Positions 41,424 through 47,731 of a stretch of DNA of 64,000 nucleotides are shown piece by piece; position 1 is the first letter of the stretch; each line of letters opens with the position of its first letter. Source of the stretch: Gammaproteobacteria bacterium (GTDB taxonomy: Bacteria; Pseudomonadota; Gammaproteobacteria; Pseudomonadales; Cellvibrionaceae); contig SEBU01000001.1 in NCBI GenBank assembly GCA_004173475.1, positions 1,364,001 to 1,428,000 on the forward strand. The letters are read 5' to 3'. Made by a program: the position numbers and the translations under genes. Under the pieces are notes generated by a model, which worked only from the letters and a program-made list of their open reading frames with translations, had not been told where the DNA came from and searched no databases.

Positions 41424-41591
41424 AGCTAGCGCATTTCGAAACCGCCGGTGGGGTTACGGCACTTGCCAAGGCTCGCGGGCATTATAGCCAAAAGTACCAG
41501 CGATTGCGCACCTGAATAAACGGTAGTTAACGCTCGCTTGGGCTCAGTGCTATGCTTAGCGCAAAAAATTAGTCAGGAATCTCAACTTATC

Positions 41592-43640
41592 ATGGAACAC
41601 ACAGCCGTCACTTTTACGGCCTATCTCAGCGCCGCCGTTGTATCGACTCTGCTGACGCTCACTTACCTCTACCAGTTCTGGCATCACCAGCGCGGGTTTG
41701 CCTTTGCTGTCGCGGCGGCAATCAATACTTTGCACCTGGCCGCCATAGCTATGTCATTTTCAAGCTATCAATTAACCACTCACTGGTTACTGCTGGTGGA
41801 GTGTCTGCATTACAACGCTTGGGTTTTGGCTATCGCACTGAGCTTGCGCAAGCAAAGTAAGCAGCAGCAATTTCCGCGCAGCTTGCAAATTCTATTTGGC
41901 GCAGGCTGGCCACTAACGGCGTTAATTTTTGTATTTGCTCTTTCAGACAGCAAAAAACTTATCGCACTGACCCCCTGGTTTGCGTTGAGCCTTGCGGTTA
42001 TAAGCCTTGTAAGCGTAGAGCAACTTTACCGGTACGCTGCGAGCAATGATCGTCAAATAAAGCTCCTGTGCATGAATCTTGGTGCTATTTTTATTTACGA
42101 CATTTACCTCTATACCCACGGCATTATTTTTCAAGGCCTTGACCCGCTGCTATGGCAATCGCGGGCCGCCGTCTCAATTGCTACTTGTCTATTTATGTCT
42201 CTAGGCGGACTGGTGCCCCTACAACAATCCCATCGTACGGCCAATTTCAATATCTCCCGACCCATAGCCTTTTATACGACTTCATTAATAGGCGTGGGGC
42301 TGCTAATTACTTCATTATCGTTGGGAGGATATTACGTTCGACTTTATGGTGGAAACTGGGGTACGGTCATTTACAGCTTTGTGCTGGTAGGTGCGGTTCT
42401 GATTATCGCTACCGTGTTCGTATCAAGCAGTTTGCGTTCGCGCTTATCTGTACTAATTAACAAACATCTATTCCGACTTAAATATGATTACCGCAGCGAA
42501 TGGCTGCGCATCATCAACTATCTTGCTCAACCTGCGGAAGCGAGTGAGGTTAACGAACGCGCATTCTTCGCCGTAGCCTCCACGACCAAAGCCCCAGGCG
42601 GAGCCATTTGGTTATTGAAGCAGGGTTTTTACGAGCCGGTTTATCAGGTGAATCTTCCCAAGATTGTTGATCTACAGGAAGAACCTACCAATAGTTCGTT
42701 TTGTCAGGCATTCCTGGATTTGGAGTGGGTATATTTTCCAGACAGCGGCGACAACGAGGCGCTAAGCCAAAACAATGAATTATTGCCATACTGGGCGCGC
42801 AATTTTCCCAATCTTTGGCTGATATTCCCCTTAATCGTGGGCGAGGAGCTAGTTGGTTTTATGGCTCTAACCAAACCTACTGATGATGCCACGCTCACGT
42901 GGGAGGATTTAGATCTTCTTAAAACTATTGGCCGCCAAATTGCCAGCTATTTAAAACGCCATCATCAAGCAGACCAGCTTGCGGAAGGTAAGCAATTCGA
43001 TACCTACAACAAGCTCGTGGCATTTATTATTCATGACCTCAATAATTTGATCGCCCAACAGGCGCTCATGGTCAAAAACGCGGAAAAACATAAGGACAAT
43101 CCAGCCTTCGTTGAGGATGCTATTAAAACCATCAGCCATTCGGTAGATCGCATGAATAACCTGCTGAAAAAACTGCGGAGGGATGAATCTGATTTAGTAA
43201 AATGTCTCAACATGACTGAGATCGTGGAGCAGGCGGTTTCAGAGTGTTCACGTAACAATCCGCAATTAACCAGCACCATCGCGCAAGCCAATCACACCTT
43301 GAATGCTGATCAGGTTCGACTGGTCATGACCATCACCAATTTCATAAAAAACGCTTTGGAAGCAACACCTTCCGGCGGCAGAGTTCATGTTACACTCGTC
43401 TATATTGATGATCGGGCAGTTATTAATATTGAAGATAACGGCTCCGGTATGGATTGGGATTTCATTCACAATCGATTGTTCAAACCTTTTGAAACCACCA
43501 AGTCAGGCAAGGGCATGGGAATCGGGGTTTACCTGTCACGCGAATACATCAGCGAATTGGGTGGCGCACTCAACGTGATGAGCGAGGTAGGGGAAGGCAC
43601 GACCATCACCATTTCACTTCCACTGAATACCATGGATTAA
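41592..43640 (+). CDS. prsK: PrsK-type membrane sensor histidine kinase (exosortase-associated)
   Basis: N-terminal multi-TM, GAF-like region, FIIHDLNNLIAQQALMVKNAEKH H-box, KSGKGMGIGVYLSREYI; adjacent to PrsR-type regulator; start set at ATG 41592. Confidence 0.85.
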   Translation: MEHTAVTFTAYLSAAVVSTLLTLTYLYQFWHHQRGFAFAVAAAINTLHLAAIAMSFSSYQLTTHWLLLVECLHYNAWVLAIALSLRKQSKQQQFPRSLQILFGAGWPLTALIFVFALSDSKKLIALTPWFALSLAVISLVSVEQLYRYAASNDRQIKLLCMNLGAIFIYDIYLYTHGIIFQGLDPLLWQSRAAVSIATCLFMSLGGLVPLQQSHRTANFNISRPIAFYTTSLIGVGLLITSLSLGGYYVRLYGGNWGTVIYSFVLVGAVLIIATVFVSSSLRSRLSVLINKHLFRLKYDYRSEWLRIINYLAQPAEASEVNERAFFAVASTTKAPGGAIWLLKQGFYEPVYQVNLPKIVDLQEEPTNSSFCQAFLDLEWVYFPDSGDNEALSQNNELLPYWARNFPNLWLIFPLIVGEELVGFMALTKPTDDATLTWEDLDLLKTIGRQIASYLKRHHQADQLAEGKQFDTYNKLVAFIIHDLNNLIAQQALMVKNAEKHKDNPAFVEDAIKTISHSVDRMNNLLKKLRRDESDLVKCLNMTEIVEQAVSECSRNNPQLTSTIAQANHTLNADQVRLVMTITNFIKNALEATPSGGRVHVTLVYIDDRAVINIEDNGSGMDWDFIHNRLFKPFETTKSGKGMGIGVYLSREYISELGGALNVMSEVGEGTTITISLPLNTMD

Positions 43641-43649
43641 CTAATCTGC

Positions 43650-45029
43650 ATGAGCCTAGCAAACCCTAAACCTATATTGCTGATTATTGAAGATGACCTG
43701 GGCCTGCAAAGCCAATTGCGATGGCATTTCGACCAGTACGAAACGGTATTCGCTGAAAACCGTTCTGATGCTATAGCCGCTCTACGCCTACACGAAGCTT
43801 CGGTCATTATTCAGGATTTAGGGCTGCCTCCAGATGAGGATGGGGTGGACGAAGGATTTAAGTGTATTCAGGATATCCTGCGAATAGCCCCTAATAGCAA
43901 GATAGTCGTCATGACCGGGAAAACCGATCATGAAAATGCGATCCGTGCGGTAGGTTTGGGCGCTTATGATTACTACCAAAAGCCCGTAGATCCAACCACA
44001 CTCGATTTGATTGTCCAGCGCGCTTTCCAAATCGCAGAGCTTGAGGCCGAGAATCGCCGGCTCAATGCAAATCATCAATCGCCCTTGGCTGGCCTTATCA
44101 CTAATGCTCCGGCGATGCTAAAACTTTGCCGCCAACTTGAGAAAATCTCTCCCACGACGGTGACCTGTACTCTTTTGGGCGAAAGCGGCACGGGCAAAGA
44201 GGTCATGGCGCGAGCTATTCATCAATTGAGTCCGCGTAAAGGCAACCGTTTTATAGCCATTAACTGCGCTGCCGTACCCGAAAACCTAATCGAAAGTGAA
44301 CTCTTCGGCTATGAAAAAGGCGCATTTACTGGAGCTAATAAACTGACCATCGGGAAGGTGGAAACTGCTCACGAAGGCACTCTTTTCTTGGACGAAATTG
44401 GCGATATGCCATTAAATTTACAAGCCAAACTACTTCGTTTCTTGCAGGAGAGGGTTATCGAGAGGGTCGGCGGACGCTCAGAAATATCGGTAGACGTGCG
44501 CGTTATCTGCGCTACTAACAAAAATATCTTAAATATGGTCCACGAAGGCACCTTCCGTGAAGACCTGTATTATCGTATTTGCGAGATGACAGTAAACATT
44601 CCGCCCCTTCGAGAGCGCCAGGGAGACAAAATTTTACTTGCTCGTCATTTCATGCAGAAGTTTGCAAAGGATCACCATCAATACATCACGGGGTTTACCC
44701 AGGAAGCGATAGAGGCCATCGAATCTTACAACTGGCCTGGAAATATTCGCGAAATGGAAAATAAAATTAAGCGCGCAGTAATCATGGCCGATGAGAAAAC
44801 CATTAGCTGCGATGACCTTGGATTGGCCCCAGCAGAAGAGTTGTCTCTTAATCTTCGTCAAATCCGCCACGAGGCAGAGAAACAGGCTATTTTGCGAGCT
44901 CTAAGCATGACAGATAACCAGATCTCGGCAGCCGCGAAATTGTTGGGAATCACTCGCCCTACTTTCTACGACCTAATAAAGAAATACGACATTACTACAC
45001 CCACAAGTAGTGAAACCTCGCCAAATTAA
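43650..45029 (+). CDS. prsR: PrsR-type sigma-54-dependent response regulator (exosortase-associated)
   Basis: N-terminal REC, LLGESGTGKEVMARAIHQLSPRK, ELFGYEKGAFTGA, LFLDEIGDMPLNLQAKLLRFLQE, C-terminal Fis-type HTH. Confidence 0.9.
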   Translation: MSLANPKPILLIIEDDLGLQSQLRWHFDQYETVFAENRSDAIAALRLHEASVIIQDLGLPPDEDGVDEGFKCIQDILRIAPNSKIVVMTGKTDHENAIRAVGLGAYDYYQKPVDPTTLDLIVQRAFQIAELEAENRRLNANHQSPLAGLITNAPAMLKLCRQLEKISPTTVTCTLLGESGTGKEVMARAIHQLSPRKGNRFIAINCAAVPENLIESELFGYEKGAFTGANKLTIGKVETAHEGTLFLDEIGDMPLNLQAKLLRFLQERVIERVGGRSEISVDVRVICATNKNILNMVHEGTFREDLYYRICEMTVNIPPLRERQGDKILLARHFMQKFAKDHHQYITGFTQEAIEAIESYNWPGNIREMENKIKRAVIMADEKTISCDDLGLAPAEELSLNLRQIRHEAEKQAILRALSMTDNQISAAAKLLGITRPTFYDLIKKYDITTPTSSETSPN

Positions 45030-45280
45030 CCGGCGGAAAGATGAACTATTAACCTACATTAAAATTATTTTTCTGTTAGCTATATAACAATATTGAATAT
45101 AAGATTTCACCAATGTGCCAACTACTTATCACAATTAATGGAATTCCATTCTCGGTTTTGATAAATACCTCTAAAAGCTCTCACATCTTTATAAGCTAAA
45201 TGCTAAAAGATTAATTGCAGGGGAGCCTGCGCGAAGTTTGAGATACACCCAAAATTCCAAATATCTAATGGTATAGAAAA

Positions 45281-46162
45281 ATGCTTTCTCTTGCGCTCAA
45301 CCACGCTAAGCTGCCTTTTTGCGGCATGATTTTTTCACTCATTTTAACCGCTTGTGGCGGTGCCGCCGGCGTTGACGGCGAAGGAGCTGGTACGTCCGGC
45401 TTACAAAACAAAACAGAAAATGCTGAAATACCCAGCCTTAGCTCATCATCGAGCCAAACTGTTACAGAATCTTCCGTAGCAACAAGCGTAACCGCTTCCA
45501 GTGAAGCACATTCAAGCTTAAGTTCAAAAATTACAGTTACTGCCAGCTCAGTAAGTTCACCTGCGATTCAAACATCTTCAAAATCAAGCTCAGTTAGTCT
45601 CACTGTCGTTGCTTCGTCTGCAAAAGCAGCTTCGATCGCGAATCAAATCAGCTCAGCCGCCAACGTAAAATCAAGTTCGCTATCGAGCTCATCGGTTTCT
45701 TCGAGCGTTAAGTCCAGCCTGTCAAGCTCAAGCGTGGTCAGCAGCTCGAGTAAATCAAGCTCTCTTATGAGTAGTTCCAAAGCGGCAAGCTCGTCGAGCA
45801 AATTGAGCTCGTCCGTTGCCTCAAGCAAAGCAGCATCTTCTATTAAATCCAATAGTTCTGTTGCGGTTAGTTCGAGCAGCAAAGCTGTTACCTCCTCTAG
45901 TAGCTCTGCCAGCGCAACCAACACTCTTATTCAATGGTCCCACCCCATAGCTCGCGCGAATGGCGAATACTTGAACCTGGACGAAATCGGTGGGTACGAC
46001 ATACGTTATAAATCATCAACCGCTAGCAGCTACACACGTATAAATATCAAAGGAAACAGCACTACCTCCTATACATTCGTGGGTTCTTTATCAGGCCTAA
46101 CGTTTGAAATTGCTGTTTACGACACCGACAGCGTATACAGCGATTATGTAACCATCGAATGA
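45281..46162 (+). CDS. Poly-Ser-rich lipoprotein with C-terminal FN3-like domain
   Basis: Lipobox ILTACGG; long Ser/Lys/Ala/Val low-complexity region; C-terminal beta domain TLIQWSHPIARANGEYLNLDEIGGYDIRYKSS...YTFVGSLSGLTFEIAVYDTDSVYSDYVTIE. Confidence 0.8.
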   Translation: MLSLALNHAKLPFCGMIFSLILTACGGAAGVDGEGAGTSGLQNKTENAEIPSLSSSSSQTVTESSVATSVTASSEAHSSLSSKITVTASSVSSPAIQTSSKSSSVSLTVVASSAKAASIANQISSAANVKSSSLSSSSVSSSVKSSLSSSSVVSSSSKSSSLMSSSKAASSSSKLSSSVASSKAASSIKSNSSVAVSSSSKAVTSSSSSASATNTLIQWSHPIARANGEYLNLDEIGGYDIRYKSSTASSYTRINIKGNSTTSYTFVGSLSGLTFEIAVYDTDSVYSDYVTIE

Positions 46163-46267: not shown

Positions 46268-47731
46268 ATGCAGGACATGAATACAGCAAGCAGCTTTAGG
46301 ACCAGCCTGCAACTTTCGGCATTGCTAGCGATTCTGATCTTATCCTTTCACTCGACCGCCCTATCGCTCTACAGTCGGTGGATTAAGTTTGATCAATCAT
46401 TAAGTCACGGCCTACCCACGGTCGCCATTTTTACGTTCCTTCTGTGGAAAATTACGGCCACTTCCGGCACGCGAGATCAAACCAGCCTCAATTGGTTCCT
46501 AACTATTTCACTCGGTGTGCTATCAATCATCTGGTATCTGGTTGAAGCTATTAACCTGCAATTGGCTTCTGCCGCTTTATTACTCGCATTGTTCGCGCTC
46601 TATATTGCTAGCAGTTTTTCGCTAAAAACTGCACGTCAGTTATTACCGCTTATCGCGATGTTTCTATTCACCATTCCAGTCTGGGGCGAGCTTACCGATG
46701 TATTGGTCGAGATCAGCAGTTTCGTTGTTGGAAGAGCAGTAGAAATCATAGGAATCACCGCTTTAATCGAAGGCAATAACATTTTAATTCCCAGCGGAAT
46801 TATTCAAATTGCGGAGGGTTGTTCAGGATTACGCTATCTGACGATATCGTTGTTACTGGCATACATATTAAGCCTGATTAACGGTTACAACTTACGTCAA
46901 AGCATCGTAGCGCTCATCGTAGGGACATTGCTTGGGTTACTGACAAACTGGATTCGCATTATTGCTTTGGTGGTTATAGGCTATAACACCAACATGCAAA
47001 GCTCGCTTATGCATGATCACGAAATGTTTGGGTGGATTCTATTTTCCCTTATTATTTTGCCCGCACTTTACCTCGCTCCCCTCGTGCAAAAACACATTAA
47101 TTTCAATATCGAAACGCCGCCCTTTAAACCGTTCATTCCTACATTGTTCTTAATAATCGGCCCCGTGTTGTTTATTTTTTCGGAGAGAAATGCCGATTAC
47201 TCAAATCGTCTCGACCTAAACGGATTTAATTTTTCACAAAATGCTATGCGGGATATAAATTTAGTTGAGATCCCATTTCCAGAAACTATAGCGGTATCAA
47301 ATAACGCCATTTTAATTGATGGGACCGATATAAAATTAACGCTGGCGAAATCTATCGCACCACCCACTAATAGGAAGCTAGTTCCTTACATTGGAAACTT
47401 TTTTGATAATAGTGATTGGGTGGCGACTGAGCAAAGAACCGTAAATATAGATGGCGAAAAATTTACGCTATTAATACTTAAAAAAATTAATGCCAGCCAC
47501 CAATCGTTGCTGATGTACCAATTTAATATTGGCAAAAGCAATACGGCCTCATATCGAATGGCGAAATTGCTGCAATTGAAAGCGCGACTTTTAGGTGAGG
47601 ATTTTTTTGGGCTTCTAGCTATGCAAGCTAACTGTAAGCTGGATTGCGATGACGAGATAATTGCATTGCGCAAGGCCGCTTCGGAGTGGCACAAAATAAA
47701 GCGACAACAATTACGCCAAGTTATTAACTAA
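46268..47731 (+). CDS. xrtA: Exosortase (XrtA/EpsH-like) with C-terminal EpsI/DUF3485-like domain
   Basis: Multi-TM with Cys motif EGCSGLRYL, Arg motif TNWIRI, His motif HDHEMFGWILF; soluble C-terminal extension after last TM; prsK/prsR context. Confidence 0.88.
   Translation: MQDMNTASSFRTSLQLSALLAILILSFHSTALSLYSRWIKFDQSLSHGLPTVAIFTFLLWKITATSGTRDQTSLNWFLTISLGVLSIIWYLVEAINLQLASAALLLALFALYIASSFSLKTARQLLPLIAMFLFTIPVWGELTDVLVEISSFVVGRAVEIIGITALIEGNNILIPSGIIQIAEGCSGLRYLTISLLLAYILSLINGYNLRQSIVALIVGTLLGLLTNWIRIIALVVIGYNTNMQSSLMHDHEMFGWILFSLIILPALYLAPLVQKHINFNIETPPFKPFIPTLFLIIGPVLFIFSERNADYSNRLDLNGFNFSQNAMRDINLVEIPFPETIAVSNNAILIDGTDIKLTLAKSIAPPTNRKLVPYIGNFFDNSDWVATEQRTVNIDGEKFTLLILKKINASHQSLLMYQFNIGKSNTASYRMAKLLQLKARLLGEDFFGLLAMQANCKLDCDDEIIALRKAASEWHKIKRQQLRQVIN

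Follow-up and report, generated by a model that had tools for sequence, protein, structure and literature searches.

Introduction

The described systems closest to the gene considered here are those of PEP-CTERM protein sorting and of polyserine-linked carbohydrases. Phylogenetic profiling in 2006 tied PrsK, PrsR, PrsT and the exosortase EpsH/XrtA to PEP-CTERM proteins, the fate of which after the exosortase was left open in that study (PMC1569441). Serine-rich and polyserine linkers are typical of the carbohydrases of Cellvibrio, Saccharophagus and Teredinibacter (PMC2699552).

We analysed a stretch of 64,000 nucleotides from a Cellvibrionaceae genome (hereafter the window), in which a gene for a lipoprotein with a serine-rich linker stands between prsR and an exosortase gene. 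The protein resembles PrsT in being a lipoprotein of the same loci, frequently its direct neighbour, and in sharing the phylogenetic profile of PrsK and PrsR (PMC1569441), but it has neither TPR repeats nor any sequence relation to PrsT, gives no match to the PrsT model TIGR02917 in NCBIfam, and coexists with PrsT in genomes. PEP-CTERM proteins (PF07589/TIGR02595) are encoded close to it in many loci, whereas the lipoprotein itself carries neither a PEP-CTERM signal nor a sigma-54 box. It shares a serine-rich linker and the bacterial group with the polyserine-linked carbohydrases (PMC2699552); unlike them it has no known catalytic or binding module, and its relatives swap the serine linker. 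Its C-terminal domain, which we call the cap, recalls fn3 (PF00041) in its predicted fold, its Foldseek matches and its core W, P, Y, A, G and S positions, but differs in scoring below threshold, in lacking strand A and in being single and strictly C-terminal; ordinary fn3 domains stand internally in some of the proteins that bear a cap.

The locus and the lipoprotein

All genes of the locus lie on the forward strand. The XrtA/PEP-CTERM histidine kinase gene prsK (41538..43640; TIGR02916, 571.3 bits against a cut-off of 300) is followed by prsR, encoding the sigma-54 response regulator of the PEP-CTERM box (43650..45029; TIGR02915, 694.9 bits against 502.6), by a gap of 251 bp (45030..45280), and by the lipoprotein gene (45281..46162), which starts with ATG and encodes 293 residues. 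Downstream lies an XrtA-like exosortase gene (46268..47731) whose product matches PF09721 (141 bits, E 7e-41) and contains the C-x-G, N-x-x-R and H-x-x-x-G motifs described for this family (PMC1569441); its best NCBIfam match is XrtA (TIGR03109), at 148 bits under the cut-off of 208, and its C-terminal part is weakly EpsI-like. About 20 PEP-CTERM matches above cut-off, a part of which fall in very short reading frames, and a prsT gene about 24 kb past the exosortase gene make the sorting system of the source genome look complete. No PEP-CTERM gene adjoins the lipoprotein gene at the window locus.

The protein begins with a type II signal peptide (residues 1-24, 45281..45352) closed by the lipobox LTA|C25-G-G, a signal peptide with a lipobox ending in Cys being the mark of signal peptidase II processing; Cys25 is invariant across 22 aligned relatives, which bears out the original prediction of a lipoprotein. 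The residue at +2 is Gly and not Asp, which does no more than suggest an outer-membrane location.

The mature N-terminus and linker (residues 25-213, 45353..45919) are delimited by composition and by the low confidence of the full-length AlphaFold2 model, in which residues ~30-210 appear disordered with block mean pLDDT of 42-54. A linker of about 170 residues dominated by serine had been predicted; the length holds, with 173 residues between positions 41 and 213, and the composition is serine-rich rather than nearly pure serine, with 80 Ser (46%) accompanied by Ala, Val, Lys and Thr. The richest stretch of 100 residues nevertheless holds 55 Ser, whereas none of 13 other window genes goes beyond 15. 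Serine codons, all six of them, are used in the linker as they are in these 13 genes, and Tandem Repeats Finder detects no tandem repeat in the linker DNA, which indicates that serine is kept at the protein level and rules out slippage or repeat expansion of the DNA as the origin of the polyserine.

Pfam yields no catalytic domain and no carbohydrate-binding module (CBM) in the lipoprotein, as originally noted for enzymes, and with no Pfam or NCBIfam match to the whole the possibilities of an enzyme, a CBM or a TPR protein are eliminated. Matches to MiAMP1 lie below cut-off, and those to PLRV_ORF5 track the proline-rich linker. The lipoprotein is not an exosortase substrate of the PEP-CTERM type either: it ends in ...YSDYVTIE, with no motif and no PF07589 match.

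The C-terminal cap

The remaining residues, 214-293 (45920..46159), make up the cap. The earlier expectation of a compact C-terminal beta domain is upheld by structure prediction, with a start at ~213 rather than ~210: modelled alone by AlphaFold2 the cap reaches a mean pLDDT of 92.6, and in the full-length model residues 212-293 score 89-98, with strands at 214-218, 236-245, 252-257, 263-267, 273-281 and 290-292. Its top PDB matches in Foldseek are almost all FN3 domains, at a probability of ~1.0 and a TM-score of ~0.6, with a best E-value of only 0.019. Searched with the isolated cap, Pfam fn3 gives a sub-threshold 20.2 bits (cut-off 25, E 7e-4), and with the whole lipoprotein no fn3 match. 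The profile aligns from its position ~13 onward, leaving positions ~1-12 unmatched, which together with the Foldseek matches points to an FN3-like fold without strand A. According to the models, then, the cap is a confidently folded domain, probably FN3-like and lacking that strand.

Each of the 91 cap proteins collected carries one cap, and in 90 of them at most 10 residues separate its end from the C-terminus, whether it sits behind a lipobox and linker, behind CBM6 repeats, or behind F5/8C or PA14 domains. FN3 domains of the ordinary kind typically occur inside a protein and in several copies. Set against this, the strictly terminal position of the cap speaks more for docking or sorting than for a spacer. 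Could the cap be a C-terminal sorting module, read like other such sorting domains by an export or surface-attachment machinery of which the lipoproteins are small clients? The single terminal cap following a low-complexity linker and the diversity of cargo ahead of it (CBM6 x3, F5/8C, PA14, or a lipobox only) would fit such a signal; most of the Prs-linked copies, however, have no cargo beyond the linker, the analysis turned up no machinery dedicated to the cap, and we regard this explanation as rather unlikely.

In many Cellvibrio copies the linker is interrupted midway by an additional fn3 domain of the ordinary type. The cap also closes large secreted proteins in which CBM6 or F5/8C (discoidin-like) domains are repeated (L012:3718-5754, L014:4874-6994, L027:4762-6111 and L105:3931-6237).

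A separate observation concerns paralogous cap proteins of Cellvibrio whose first ~80 residues are similar to MshEN, a domain that binds c-di-GMP (MshE, 5htl, E 2e-5), and are placed ahead of the signal peptide or lipobox (alignment A4; L011:4038-4340, L012:3718-4032, L126:4684-4992 and others). Every Cellvibrio genome except one has such paralogues, and so do the genera g50 and g43. Motif I is kept, whereas motif II has lost its Arg and a spacer of 15-19 residues replaces the usual 5, which makes binding of c-di-GMP uncertain.

Conservation and gene order

The lipoprotein gene adjoins prsR, the exosortase gene xrt, or both in 21 of 21 Cellvibrio genomes (that of the window and 20 more), and in most of the 20 further genomes the positional orthologue sits between the two. 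The exceptions are of three kinds: the gene lies beside prsR with xrt 20-28 kb off (G006, G014, G016 and the second locus of G009), beside xrt with prsR 28 kb off (G011), or at a contig end adjoining one or the other (G002, G007, G010, G020). The check for conservation at this position that had been proposed thus turns out positive throughout the genus, and what had been described as an insertion between prsR and the exosortase gene proves to be an old resident of these loci. The Cellvibrio caps are only 29-68% identical to that of the window while prsR keeps 80-86%, so the cap evolves fast. In a cap tree of 79 columns most forks are open and the Cellvibrio copies at the xrt locus are not shown to form a single clade; their orthology therefore rests on position. 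In Cellvibrio sp. OA-2007 (L062:4662-6417) prsR is cut at 303 residues and the lipoprotein that follows is without its lipobox end, a lesion that could be either a natural deletion or a misassembly.

Outside the genus, members were traced by a motif scan of genome contigs for the cap, which was found in Marinimicrobium, Reinekea, Saccharospirillum and Natronospirillum; the cap also occurs in further families of the same order. These proteins mostly consist of a lipobox, a linker and the cap, and their linkers are of other kinds: PTPSP in genus g50, TEPEP or DTGTDTG (DTGTD) in Saccharospirillum and Reinekea. With sister lineages carrying other low-complexity linkers, a special role of polyserine is not supported; as far as the sequences tell, polyserine is replaceable and the linker is a putative low-complexity spacer of free composition.

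Gene order shifts across families, yet the company of Prs and Xrt genes persists. The lipoprotein gene lies beside prsR in g50. One to three copies of it directly precede prsK-prsR-prsT in Reinekea, Saccharospirillum and Natronospirillum, and two Saccharospirillum genomes have a copy on either side of a PEP-CTERM gene. In Marinimicrobium it stands ahead of prsT - PEP-CTERM - xrtA. Other families show prsR - lipoprotein - prsT, prsR - prsT - lipoprotein, or lipoprotein - DUF1631 - prsK - prsR (- prsT). A gene of 725-747 codons separates the cap lipoprotein from prsK in several families (L130-L132, L134-L136, L148), and in both families scanned it encodes DUF1631 (PF07793).

Such proximity to the kinase raises the question of whether the lipoprotein could act in the outer membrane as an envelope sensor of the RcsF kind, its cap, held on a disordered arm, reporting the state of the envelope or matrix to PrsK. 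A lipobox, a disordered linker and a small C-terminal domain make up the RcsF-type layout, which the lipoprotein shares, and it adjoins prsK or prsR in most families. In Marinimicrobium-like genomes, however, it is encoded 30-38 kb from prsKR, in the company of prsT, PEP-CTERM and xrtA genes, and the tandem copies per locus and the fusions to CBM6 and F5/8C domains fit a sensor poorly. We consider this role unlikely.

Co-occurrence with the Prs system

Across 393 genomes of the order with a completeness of at least 90%, the cap occurs in 77, prsR in 104 and both in 72, so that prsR is present in 72 of the 77 genomes with the cap and in 32 of the 316 without it (Fisher 8e-47). Counted by genera, which is less affected by relatedness than the count of genomes, prsR is found in 24/27 genera with the cap as against 21/110 others (Fisher 1.7e-11). 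Among the matches listed, a copy lies within 10 kb of prsR in at least 30 of the 68 genomes in which both could be placed, and within 40 kb in four more; by our own estimate, random placement would yield about 1%. About half of the cap genomes of the order have no copy near prsR among the matches listed, and a recognisable cap is absent from 32 of the prsR genomes. Elsewhere in the class, prsR occurs in 19 of 30 cap genomes and 95 of 340 others (counted from lists), and few copies of the cap are near prsR; since the association there is weak and mostly unlinked, we claim a tight link for the order only.

The lipoprotein thus shows two of the properties expected of a Prs component, linkage with genes of the system across lineages and a phylogenetic profile matching that of prsR, and its association with Prs and Xrt genes is direct observation. 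The suspected partnership with the exosortase system turns out to be broader than a single locus could reveal, extending over several families and involving prsK, prsR and prsT, PEP-CTERM genes and xrtA. The same counts speak against a passive spacer or adhesive surface decoration with no specific exosortase link, for which the neighbourhood would be nothing but old gene order. Such a role could be read from the polyserine linkers typical of this bacterial group (PMC2699552), from the paralogues found in housekeeping contexts and from the fast divergence of the cap relative to prsR, but it would hardly account for co-occurrence with prsR at the level of genera or for a linkage that is rearranged and nonetheless persists across families, and we think it improbable.

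PEP-CTERM neighbours and regulation

At 10 loci of Cellvibrio and g50, a PEP-CTERM gene (PF07589 above cut-off) adjoins the lipoprotein gene or lies one gene off. Seven of the 10 nearby PEP-CTERM proteins belong to one family of ~250 residues, mostly 45-58% identical between genera, which in Saccharospirillum and Marinimicrobium is likewise encoded next to the lipoprotein gene or to prsT (L069, L070, L072, L075-L077, L092, L110, L112, L127 and L144 for the family as a whole). Members of this family have a conserved DGWGID..TVG motif just ahead of the PEP signal, and in several genera they are encoded beside xrtA or prs genes.

The lipoprotein might itself be a candidate downstream partner of the exosortase: the cap might be a C-terminal docking module dedicated to Prs/exosortase bacteria, through which the lipoprotein, as an outer-membrane receptor, would hold or hand over PEP-CTERM proteins released by the exosortase. 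Without strand A the sheet would have a free edge, at which a partner could add a strand of its own. In this specific form the proposal seems to us very doubtful.

Is the lipoprotein gene, then, controlled by PrsR? With a scoring matrix composed from general knowledge, no sigma-54 site of the -24/-12 type was found upstream of the gene in the window (p 0.62) or ahead of the lipoprotein genes of most relatives, and the 251-bp gap contains no sigma-70-like site. The positive controls were found: six of eight PEP-CTERM genes from other genomes score p<=0.015, and clear -24/-12 sites such as TGGCACGATAATCGCT stand ahead of PEP-CTERM genes (L034, L036, L110, L112, L127, L129, L144), in keeping with the prediction of 2006 (PMC1569441). 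Control by sigma-54 and PrsR is therefore rejected for most members; the lipoprotein gene is not an obvious PrsR target and, by motif, probably falls outside the PrsR regulon.

Proposed function

What could such a protein do? The reading that we favour, at a probability of about 0.48, is that of an unnamed family of predicted outer-membrane lipoproteins belonging to the XrtA/PEP-CTERM (PrsK-PrsR-PrsT) loci of one gammaproteobacterial order, in which the cap docks a matrix component. Against this reading stand the lack of an adjoining PEP-CTERM gene at the window locus, the missing sigma-54 site, the cap genomes with no listed copy near prsR, the prsR genomes without a recognisable cap and the weak link outside the order. 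The membrane location, ligand and tethering function that we infer would take the following form. The protein would be exported by Sec, cleaved by signal peptidase II and acylated at Cys25, and then carried to the outer membrane by Lol transport, given Gly rather than Asp at +2. The disordered linker of ~185 residues would act as a spacer holding the FN3-like cap away from the membrane, where the cap may dock a component of the EPS/PEP-CTERM matrix and so tie the matrix to the cell; this component would be the polysaccharide itself or a PEP-CTERM protein that the exosortase has released.

No model in Pfam or NCBIfam covers the cap lipoprotein, and a literature search, with subscription papers outside its reach, found no paper naming the family. 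The single paper found to combine PEP-CTERM and exosortase with lipoprotein and fibronectin type III appears to be a Geobacter transcriptome study, and the only one found to join Cellvibrio and exosortase concerns rhombosortase. Polyserine linkers (PMC2699552) and PrsK, PrsR and PrsT (PMC1569441) were already known; what is new is that these loci recurrently encode one more lipoprotein. Small, tipped by 80 residues that can fold, and often travelling with one PEP-CTERM family, it offers a testable part of a poorly understood system, and if it does hold PEP-CTERM proteins or EPS, an outer-membrane end of the pathway would have been identified.
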